DNA of 64,000 nucleotides from Anaerotruncus colihominis (GTDB lineage: Bacteria > Bacillota > Clostridia > Oscillospirales > Ruminococcaceae): the NCBI GenBank assembly GCA_025146135.1, contig CP102255.1, forward strand, positions 3,100,001-3,164,000, in the 5' to 3' direction. A model generated the notes under the pieces. That model saw only the letters and a list, made by a program, of their open reading frames with translations, made no database searches and was not told where the DNA came from. A program made the translations under genes and the position numbers. Positions 31,267 through 54,205 of this stretch are shown here, piece after piece (within the stretch, counting starts at the first letter, position 1; each line of letters starts with the position of its first letter).

Positions 31267-31350
31267 ATTCGTTCACCTCCAAGTCGTTCATCAATCGGGC
31301 ACGCAGGCCCGGCGGCGGATGTCATCCGCCCGAAACCGTCCCGGCGCAAA

Positions 31351-31482
31351 CAAAAACGGCTCTTTCCACGGATGGAAAGAGCCTGTTAACCGCGTGAATA
31401 TACACGGATATCCGCACCTTTCCTCGGCAGGCAAGACAATGTGTCTTTTCTGTCCTTTTGGACACCTGCTGTCTTAGGACAG
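31351..31482 (-). promoter_or_regulatory. Ribosomal protein L10 leader with attenuator
   Basis: On the minus strand the leader carries AGACAGCAGGTGTCC and then TTGTCTTGCCTGCCGAGG, the paired elements of the L10-binding leader. After these comes a terminator hairpin GGCTCTTTCCA/TGGAAAGAGCC with a GTTTTTG tract (31351-31383). Excess L10 is expected to favour termination. About 85 nt separate the terminator from rplJ. Confidence 0.85.
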
Positions 31483-31488
31483 CTTTTA

Positions 31489-31517
31489 TAGTATACCATC
31501 CCGCTTGCGGGATGTCA
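31489..31517 (-). promoter_or_regulatory. Sigma-A promoter of rplJ-rplL with a palindromic spacer
   Basis: TTGACA, 17-bp spacer, TATACT on the minus strand. The spacer is almost wholly a palindrome, ATCCCGC-TT-GCGGGAT (31497-31512), which touches the -35 box. Confidence 0.85.
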
Positions 31518-40988: not shown

Positions 40989-41612
40989 ATGGATTTACAA
41001 GCATTTTTCAAGATGTCTTATGGCCTTTATGTTTTAAGCGCCGCGTTTGACGGCAAGCAGAACGGCTGCATTGTCAATACGGTCACACAGGTGACCGCCG
41101 AGCCGCCGAAGGCTACGGTCGCCGTTTCCAAGCAGAATCTGACGACCGAACTAATCGAACAATCGGGATTTTTCAACGCTGTCCCGCTGACGGAAAAGGC
41201 GACCATGGATCTGATCGGGCGCTTTGGCTTTCGCAGCGGCCGCGAGGAGGACAAGTTTTCCGGCCTGGAGCACGGCGTGGACGCGCACGGCGTCTGGTAT
41301 CCGACGCAGAACGCCGCGGCGATGTTCTCGTTTAAAGTGATCGGCAAGCTCGACCTCGATACGCATGTGCTGTTCGTCGGAAAGGCCGTCGAGGCCGTCA
41401 AGCTGTCCGACGATCCGGTCATGACTTACGACTATTACCACCGCGTCAAAAAGGGCGAGACGCCTCCGAACGCGCCGTCCTACAAAAAGCCGGAACAGAA
41501 AACCGGTTGGCGCTGCAAGATCTGCGGCTACGTCTATGAGGGCGAGGAGTTGCCCCCGGATTACATCTGCCCGATCTGCAAAAAGCCCGCTTCTTTCTTC
41601 GAAAAGCTTTAG
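40989..41612 (+). CDS. Flavin reductase-rubredoxin fusion (Hrb-type)
   Basis: A 207-aa two-domain protein. Residues 1-150 are an FMN-binding flavin-reductase-like domain (FKMSYGLYVLSAAFDGKQNG). The last ~40 residues are a rubredoxin with CKICGYVYEG and CPICKKPASFF providing the four Fe ligands. High-molecular-weight rubredoxins of this type pass electrons to flavodiiron proteins for O2 or NO removal in anaerobes. AAGGAGG precedes the ATG. The TAG stop lies in family A repeat sequence (GAAAAGCTTTAGCCGGCTGC). Confidence 0.94.
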   Translation: MDLQAFFKMSYGLYVLSAAFDGKQNGCIVNTVTQVTAEPPKATVAVSKQNLTTELIEQSGFFNAVPLTEKATMDLIGRFGFRSGREEDKFSGLEHGVDAHGVWYPTQNAAAMFSFKVIGKLDLDTHVLFVGKAVEAVKLSDDPVMTYDYYHRVKKGETPPNAPSYKKPEQKTGWRCKICGYVYEGEELPPDYICPICKKPASFFEKL

Positions 41613-41941
41613 CCGGCTGCGCTCCAGCCTTTTTGAAAAAAGGCCTCGGCGAAAAACTTTAATCGGCTGCGCCGCGAACAGAAGGCTTGGCGCATCGCAG
41701 TCAAAAGTTTTCGCCCGCCTTTTTTAAAAGGCGGCGGGTGAGAAAAAAGGCAAGACCCTCGTGGGTCTTGCCTTTTTTCGAGGGCAGCGCCCTTTTCCCC
41801 AGGCCGCAGCCCTCATAAAAGCGCGGCCCACAGGCCGCAAGAGCCTGTTCAGACGCAGGGCCTTGCGGCAGCAGGAGGCGTGACAGACGCCGCGCGGCTG
41901 GCGCGCCTCCTGCCGCCCCGCGTCTCCGAAAGAAACGCCGC
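41599..41941 (+). repeat. Composite structured repeat, copy 1
   Basis: In order it has a family A hairpin (GCCTTTTTGAAAAAAGGC), the CGGCTGCGCCGCGAAC box, and a GCCTTTT/AAAAGGC stem. Stem S1 is 16 bp (AAAAAAGGCAAGACCC, loop TCGT; 41743-41778). Next come a CGAGGGCAGCGCCC block and a GGCCGC/GCGGCC stem. Stem S2 (41865-41916) consists of GCGGCAG..GGAGGCG and CGCCTCCTGCCGC around the loop TGACAGACGCC-GCGC-GGCTGG. Copy 2 is behind ppdK. S1 can also terminate transcription of the Hrb gene. Confidence 0.85.
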
Positions 41942-53736: not shown

Positions 53737-53745
53737 TTTCAATAG

Positions 53746-53779
53746 GGCCTCCGTCTTTTCGACGGAGGCCTCCCTTTTT
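53746..53779 (+). terminator. Terminator of ppdK
   Basis: A 10-bp stem GGCCTCCGTC/GACGGAGGCC with a TTTTC loop, then CCCTTTTTC. Confidence 0.92.
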
Positions 53780-53789
53780 CCCGCTTTTT

Positions 53790-54205
53790 CCCGCTTTTTT
53801 GAAAAAAGCTTGGCAAAAAACTTTAGCCGGCTGCGCCGCGAACAGTGGGACGGGCGCATCGCAATTAAAAGTTTTCGCCCGCCTTTTTCAAAAGGCGGCG
53901 GGTGAGACGGCGGCCAAGGCCCCTCGCGGGTTTTGGCCGCCGTCGAGGGCAGCGCCCTTTCTCCGGGCCGCAGCCCTCATAAAAACGCGGCCCGCAGGCC
54001 GCAAGAATCCTGTTCAGGCGCTTCGCCCGCCCCAAGCAAAATCCGTGACAGACGCCATGCGGCTGGACGCGGATTTTGCAAACTTCTGCTTCCCGCTTTT
54101 TGAAAAAAAGCTTGGCAAAAAACCTTAGCCGGCTGCGCCGCGAACAGTGGGACGGGTTTCAGCATTTATGCAGGCTGCGCCGCGAACAATGGGATGGGCG
54201 CTACG
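53790..54205 (+). repeat. Composite structured repeat, copy 2
   Basis: Same order as copy 1: a family A hairpin (CTTTTTTGAAAAAAG), the CGGCTGCGCCGCGAACAGTG box, a GCCTTTTTCAAAAGGC stem, and S1 (53907-53943). S1 has arms ACGGCGGCCAAGGCCC and GGGTTTTGGCCGCCGT: 16 pairs, two of them G.U. Then come GAGGGCAGCGCCC and GGGCCGC/GCGGCCC. S2 (54036-54079) is GCAAAATCCG/CGGATTTTGC around TGACAGACGCC-ATGC-GGCTGG. A second family A hairpin and two tandem GC boxes follow (54090-54205). Confidence 0.85.

Follow-up and report, generated by a model that had tools for sequence, protein, structure and literature searches.

A dispersed multi-hairpin repeat in Anaerotruncus with compensated stems, largely kept loops and a terminator-like hairpin slot

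Dispersed palindromic repeats whose stems vary while their pairing is retained have a precedent. REP families, in the passages of PMC3733652 that deal with them, include sub-families whose stems carry alternative residues that remain complementary; G.T pairing is frequent in REP and is taken in those passages as a hint of transcription and of function as RNA. The same source groups the EFAR elements of Enterococcus faecalis with RUP, NEMIS and ERIC as bacterial MITEs (PMC3733652). Among streptococcal repeats, passages of PMC3049150 describe BOX as a composite of the modules boxA, boxB and boxC and SPRITE as a terminator-like repeat enriched between convergent genes, and in them over-representation between convergent genes in pneumococcus is read as tolerated insertion.

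The window analyzed here is a 64-kb stretch (G000:C1:3100001-3164000) of a 3.56-Mb genome (G000), and it contains two copies of a composite repeat that are 80% identical over 283 bp, with their parts in the same order. A first-pass annotation of the sequence had already placed both copies correctly and in this shared order; it had set the extent of the first at 41599-41941, which holds for the shared part but not for 41914-41941, which the copies do not have in common. On the + strand the order is the left block, AAAAGTTTTCG with hairpin H0, then S1, H2, H3, H3b, a linker and S2 (Table 1). S1 and S2 had been described earlier; H0, H2 and H3 are extra hairpins in the shared region, and their stems are nearly invariant among the 16 long copies found in G000. 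Both window copies of S1 have 17 pairs, one outer G-C pair more than the 16 first counted, all of them Watson-Crick in copy 1 and two of them G.T in copy 2 as originally described. The paired change of the S1 arms between the copies likewise stands, and S2 changes its arms around a kept loop just as reported. The proposal that the loops are constant fits the S2 loop nearly (pairwise difference 0.14) but not the S1 loop, which varies (0.29). H3b is present in the 17 G000 and G003 copies of alignment A6 and absent from its four A. massiliensis copies. Copy 1 lies at a convergent and copy 2 at a tandem site, with Pfam matches in the neighboring genes on both sides of each.

Table 1. Positions in the window of the parts of the two copies and of one neighboring hairpin
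Feature	Copy	Position	Strand	Description
Left block	1	41624..41681	+	Hairpin CCAGCCTTTTTGAAAAAAGGCC.. plus CGGCTGCGCCGCGAACAG; separate repeat, also solo and tandem
H0	1	41703..41741	+	AAAAGTTTTCG + hairpin CCCGCC..GGCGGCGGG + TGA; order-wide core begins here
S1	1	41742..41779	+	Terminator-like 17-bp hairpin carrying A6 and T6 tracts; stem letters replaced from copy to copy
H2	1	41780..41794	+	Core hairpin GAGGGC(AGC)GCCCTT
H3	1	41801..41812	+	Core hairpin, CGCA loop
H3b	1	41823..41838	+	GCGGCC(CACA)GGCCGC
S2	1	41871..41913	+	GCAGGAGGCG..CGCCTCCTGC around kept TGACAGACGCC-GCGC-GGCTGG
Terminator-like hairpin just before copy 2		53745..53771	+	Separate; pattern match only; after upstream PEP-utilising-enzyme gene
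H0	2	53867..53905	+	From alignment; R2 model match
S1	2	53906..53944	+	GACGGCGGCCAAGGCCC(CTCGC)GGGTTTTGGCCGCCGTC; without T-tract
H2	2	53945..53958	+	From alignment
S2	2	54036..54079	+	GCAAAATCCG..CGCGGATTTTGC; loop kept

That no named family has this layout, as the first-pass annotation supposed, agrees with our searches. At gathering score the only Rfam match in the window is RF00557 (the ribosomal protein L10 leader), a familiar RNA that lies at 31344-31496 on the minus strand, away from the element, and in 12 loci carrying the order-wide form described below the core has no match. The best sub-threshold matches reach 29 bits against a cut-off of 60 and 29.7 against 75, and a known RNA family was therefore rejected at gathering and permissive thresholds alike, nothing coming near a cut-off. 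In open-licence PMC papers we found nothing on Anaerotruncus repeats or on this layout, and no name for it.

In G000 a covariance model (R1) built on the core with S1 detects 16 copies, of which 15 score 116-165 bits; the other, L016, has lost S1 and scores 62.8 bits. Anaerotruncus colihominis JM4-15 (G003), counted here as a second species, carries 27 S1-bearing copies, and copies in such numbers exclude chance. Searching a collection of species genomes for the S1 slot and its exact flanks gave 28 stretches, 24 of them from the species of G003 and of A. massiliensis AT3 (G009), in a collection from which records of the window's own genome were possibly left out; the remaining four, in distant bacteria, are taken as chance. 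The left block is a commoner repeat with 93 cores in G000 at no more than one mismatch, and 14 fetched loci where it stands alone are tandem sense (6), antisense (3), convergent (3), divergent (1) or open (1). Its cores lie on both strands (39 and 54) and appear by eye mixed in both halves of the genome, so that a replication-strand bias was rejected. The repeats crowd near the G000 origin (dnaA at position 1), and the interval 0.94-2.49 Mb, with bounds chosen post hoc, makes up 43% of the genome and holds 5 of the 93 left-block cores.

The first-pass annotation had argued from two copies that paired change implies selection on a folded form. Further copies bear this out, as compensation holds throughout the 41 S1-bearing copies of the two species, and additional backing comes from the slot hairpins of a third species and from a covarying order-wide core. 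Alignment A5 takes 38 of these 41 copies (30 distinct; L079, L083 and L084 were excluded for stem or loop length), and in it 508 of 509 S1 cells are paired, with double-sided change at 8 pairs and in 96 cells; the covariation score is 0.538, compared with 0.211 in shuffles, none of 500 of which reaches it, and at most 0.185 with the partner slid. For S2, alignment A4 likewise takes 38 of the same 41 (34 distinct; L007, L013 and one L063 copy were missed by the S2-loop regex), 96.2% of cells are paired with 47 double-change cells, and the score is 0.302 compared with 0.175 in shuffles (again reached by 0 of 500) and at most 0.115 when slid; at several pairs G.U occurs alongside G-C and A-U. Neither L014 nor L016 enters the S1 tables. 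In both hairpins the paired cells, the double-change cells and the score lie above shuffles, and the number of double-change pairs and the number of pair types do not.

The deviations from Watson-Crick pairing are asymmetric. Across 46 S1 hairpins from three species there are 721 Watson-Crick pairs, 57 G.T, one A.C and one other, the non-G.T mismatches falling in two hairpins, one in each. G.T outnumbers A.C by 40:1 among non-Watson-Crick cells in S1 and by 54:6 in S2, which has 16 other mismatches, counts in which many cells are inherited or lie in fixed columns and are not independent events. Such an excess indicates that it is the + strand that folds. Among 15 of the 16 G000 copies (without L016) the mean pairwise difference is 0.47 in the outer arms of S1 and 0.42 and 0.34 in those of S2, values comparable with the linker (0.45), the flank (0.55) and the gap between H2 and H3 (0.44), and it is 0.02-0.10 in H0, H2, H3, H3b and the inner S1 stem. 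As the outer arms of S1 and S2 differ like linkers and yet stay paired, the variable stems drift like free sequence; S1 as a fast-evolving special site was rejected, since its arms differ no more than free linkers and an excess rate is unneeded. Nine loci are orthologous between G000 and G003, six of them with the same S1 type and three (L010/L083, L013/L077 and L015/L084) with a different stem, in which both arms have changed between flanks that still align. The case for selection on a folded strand is strong where S1 and S2 are concerned, and for the core it is good. In A. colihominis JM4-15 a second repeat also has hairpins swapped at a fixed place (L064, L065, L072-L075 and L077, and the orthologous sites of L005 and L006), with the variants GGCGGCTATAGCCGCC, GGCGCTACAGCGCC and a longer one, and GACCC-GTGCGC-GGGTC versus CAATCC-GTGCGC-GGATTG; stem rewriting is thus not confined to the family studied here.

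Elsewhere in the Oscillospiraceae, the family of the element-bearing Anaerotruncus relatives, 10 of 118 other genomes contain weak R1 matches (29-41 bits); eight of nine such loci (L179-L187) resemble the core without S1, and L187 does not. L179, from another genus of the family, has a hairpin of unrelated sequence (CCGTGAACAAAGTTCACGG) after H0 and before H2, which gives the impression that the S1 slot was filled independently. We screened 26 loci by regex and pairing, used 13 of the candidates, excluding nested or near-identical ones and one that bears S1, and added L181, L183, L154 and L162 by hand, which gave alignment A7 of 17 cores from 11 genomes, in which 14 of 26 pairs show double changes. 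The model built from it (R2) contains no sequence from G000 or G003, and it matches the window at 41704-41796 (55.7 bits, ending before H3) and 53868-53980 (53.6 bits), with nothing above 17.9 bits elsewhere in the window. A covariance-model search of the order had been suggested by the first-pass annotation; run with R2 at E<=1e-5 under the stricter filters for large sets, it finds the core in 38 of 295 sampled genomes (G000 included), from 27 of 149 genera and eight family groups, the other 257 genomes being without a match at that threshold. In 12 counted genomes, two taken as Anaerotruncus relatives and the others because R2 had matched, core copies number 11, 17, 22, 27, 30, 33, 49, 56, 87, 88, 128 and at least 150.

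Alignment A9 (101 hits, 90 fetched loci, 94 distinct rows) has 97.5% of its 2422 cells paired and double changes in 21 of 26 pairs and 447 cells, with a score of 0.532 compared with 0.183 shuffled and at most 0.114 slid; the rows of A7 were mostly picked by H2/H3 pairing and those of A9 by a structure model, so that pairing is partly built into these figures. In 27 elements picked on H0 sequence alone, a triloop stem of at least 6 follows in 25 (21% of shuffles) and a tetraloop stem of at least 5 comes after the triloop in 17 (2.8% of shuffles), the following triloop hairpin being S1 rather than H2 in some of them. The commonest core loops are TTTTCAAAA-like, AGA/AGC/AAA/GGA and CGCA, and exceptions occur. 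At L188-L225 genus-specific further hairpins, recognized by eye, lie 3' of the core and have rewritten stems (TTTTGATTCCGG..CCGGAATCAAC; a CAGTCC-GG-TGGACTG module), and the full element may on this account span some 200-250 nt. In another genome (G010), part of H0 (TTTTCGCCCGCCTTTTTCAAAA-like) stands three times in tandem, telescoped, before one full hairpin at L041 and L091, as if by slippage. The original description stood but was too narrow: S1 is better described as a terminator-like cassette and the element as the Anaerotruncus form of an order-wide repeat.

We then considered the genic context of the copies, with genes called by codon models of our own. Among 98 core copies across the order, with contexts taken without Pfam checks, 36 are convergent, 36 tandem sense, 17 tandem antisense and 5 divergent, and 4 have no downstream gene called; the tandem copies favor the sense direction (36:17, p=0.013). 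The upstream gene runs the same way as the copy in 15 of 16 cases in G000, in 6 of 7 in G009 and in 26 of 30 in G003, where tandem duplicates are included. Within Anaerotruncus, five of six copies in G010 run with the upstream gene and in G002 and G005 six of eight H0 elements are opposed to it, and sense placement is thus no more than a tendency. A terminator-like hairpin follows the core in sense at 51 of 98 copies and stands on the other side at 14 of 98, a count that is no fair control because that side is mostly inside the upstream gene. An order-wide link between the following terminator and context was looked for and rejected (22 of 36 versus 17 of 36, p=0.34).

In G000 eight copies are convergent, seven tandem (all sense) and one divergent. 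Pfam matches support the genes on both sides at five convergent sites (L001, L002, L005, L006, L013), six tandem sites (L003, L008, L010, L012, L015, L016) and the divergent L011, and at L004, L007, L009 and L014 one flanking gene is without a match. A T-run of at least 4 ends S1 at all eight convergent but none of five tandem sites in G000 (p=0.0008) and at 8 of 11 convergent versus 1 of 13 tandem sites in G003 (p=0.002), or 19 of 22 versus 2 of 19 when G009 is pooled with both, in a test that combines related loci, including ortholog pairs and duplicated L063 and L066 copies, and that leaves aside five further copies at divergent or open sites. The exceptions are L068, tandem with a T-tract, and L073, L077 and L080, convergent without one; outside the S1 table, the tandem L016 has lost S1 and the tandem L014 has a broken T-run. 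On a tree of the elements built without S1 the T-tract changes state at least ten times, and hence it does not mark one subfamily; an underpowered independent-pairs test on supported branches gave means of 3.7 pairs for, 0.0 against and 2.3 undecided, with a median p of 0.125, which is not significant. The stem is kept in the 24 of 41 G000 and G003 copies whose S1 is without such a T-run, and every listed S1 without a T-tract still has 14-17 pairs. A mechanical terminator scan did not flag S1, since its T-run lies inside the stem. The genes on either side of L012, one NrdD-like and the other a 4Fe-4S radical-SAM gene, run in the same direction, and read-through would make sense there. S1 may be described as a terminator-like cassette with a T-tract that goes with gene orientation in G000 and G003, by way of association rather than demonstrated mechanism.

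The same slot in A. massiliensis, examined in a small set, holds quite different perfect or near-perfect terminator-type hairpins at the convergent L138, L087, L088 and L146, at the tandem L142 and at L094, where the context is open. No hairpin fills it at L139, L140 and L141 (tandem sense) or at L148 (tandem antisense). Three convergent sites are empty as well: two of these face an S1-bearing element, and the third, L147, has a terminator-like hairpin soon after the element.

The first-pass annotation had preferred RNA on account of G.U pairs, a preference that gains from the + strand excess of G.T over A.C and from the tendency of copies to follow genes in sense. From the sense placement and the S1 T-tract pattern we consider it likely that the folded strand is RNA. 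We accordingly propose, as somewhat the more probable reading, that the repeat is a dispersed mosaic multi-hairpin element that acts in folded form at mRNA 3' ends. Transcription of the upstream gene would run into the element, and the RNA would form a series of short hairpins. In most loops and a few linkers the sequence itself would matter and be largely kept, and many stems would need only to pair and could drift through paired changes. S1 is an additional hairpin that occupies a fixed slot in the A. colihominis group; between convergent genes it would keep its A-tract and T-tract as a bidirectional intrinsic terminator, and between genes of the same direction its outer stem would still pair without the T-tract, so that polymerase could pass and an RNA hairpin remain, perhaps as a block to 3' exonucleases or as a processing site. 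A more ambitious version, which we hold only tentatively and regard as doubtful, would make this an order-wide mRNA 3'-end family with at least 150 copies in the richest genome, in which the kept loops (about TTTTCAAAA, AGA/AGC and CGCA) would be read by a putative trans-acting factor and the orientation of the following gene would decide whether the terminator cassette is inserted or disarmed, as a modular gene-end code spread by copying.

The same features could be read in terms of mobile DNA, with the repeat processed as folded single-stranded DNA by an enzyme acting in trans (as in REP/RAYT-, IS200/IS605- or attC-like elements), the stems needing only to pair and the placement at gene ends reflecting tolerance of insertion there. 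Kept loops and free stems would suit structure-reading enzymes too. The many dispersed copies fit such a history, as do the G003 orthologous sites of L003, L011 and L016, where the core is absent and left-block repeats remain, and in the relevant passages of PMC3049150 a convergent-gene excess in pneumococcus received just this explanation. G000, however, has no match to the Y1 transposase domain PF01797, for which 5 of 14 control genomes are positive, and RAYT/IS200-type mobility was rejected on this ground; mobility alone also does not predict the tandem sense bias. No target duplication is clear by eye at the three aligned core-lacking sites, weak evidence as these are repeat arrays. Taken together, we judge the mobile-DNA explanation unlikely. 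Viral spread was likewise set aside after one exact-pattern scan of viral_contigs gave 0 matches, a weak result as the pattern is a single stem variant.

Two further accounts were considered. The copies might spread at random and have no function in the host, those whose S1 is a strong terminator surviving solely between convergent genes, as elsewhere S1 would silence the next gene. Such an insertion filter would fit both the association of T-tract and context and the low number of divergent sites (5 of 98 order-wide and 1 of 16 in G000), but it leaves unexplained why S1 without a T-tract retains its pairs and why the sense direction is favored, and it requires the T-tract to change at many sites, as the tree indicates; we consider it improbable. 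Alternatively, template switching in replication might copy one palindrome arm to the other without selection, with the loops constant because the copies are young or homogenized by recombination. The outer S1 pairs, in which both sides have changed and wobble intermediates are nearly absent, the divergence of the arms at about the level of linkers (0.47 versus 0.45), which is expected for neutral sequence, and the modules swapped or replaced at orthologous sites, including those of L005 and L006 in G003, where a different repeat with its own stem rewriting replaces the middle of the core, would all accord with this. Yet the predominance of G.T over A.C, even with cells that are not independent, would need a strand-specific tolerance, and G.U stands beside G-C and A-U at the same pairs in S2 and the core. 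The core loops and hairpin order moreover recur in genera that are too distant for youth or homogenization to account for them. Neutral upkeep thus seems to us marginally less probable still than the insertion filter.

If the proposed role at mRNA 3' ends is correct, a set of gut bacteria harbors a folded gene-end element so far undescribed, with copy numbers from tens to hundreds and with enough covariation for a family to be defined. As the S1 slot is terminator-like at some loci only, it offers a natural series in which the effects of hairpin and T-tract on transcript ends may be told apart, and whether repeats of the REP, BIME and BOX kind are selfish DNA, parts of RNAs or both would become testable.

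As to kind, we place the element with the dispersed palindromic and mosaic repeats (REP, BIME, BOX and SPRITE); as far as our searches reach, the family, its spread, its covariation and its context-dependent terminator slot appear to be new. It has many foldable intergenic copies, in line with REP/BIME-like elements in general, and with REP and BIME it shares dispersed intergenic palindromes and a mosaic of modules. Its unit, however, consists of three hairpins (~76 nt), in contrast to the single 20-40 bp palindrome of REP, we noticed neither a GTAG nor a CGTC tag in the element alignments, and, unlike in REP/RAYT systems, G000 is without a Y1 transposase gene. EFAR elements insert into stem-loops, and a portion of the target stems remains at their termini, which would likewise produce locus-specific paired arms. 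S1, in contrast, is flanked by constant sequence on both outer sides and is thus, as judged against the description of EFAR, not a terminal target remnant. At convergent sites S1 resembles a bidirectional intrinsic (Rho-independent) terminator in its A-tract, GC-rich stem and T-tract, but differs from such terminators in keeping the stem at the majority of copies where the T-run is missing and in being embedded in a conserved repeat. The likeness to BOX as a modular composite, and to SPRITE as a terminator-like repeat enriched between convergent genes, is drawn from their descriptions, and what sets the element apart from BOX, RUP and SPRITE is that a single slot is terminator-like or not according to context, in a repeat whose stems are rewritten and most of whose loops are kept.
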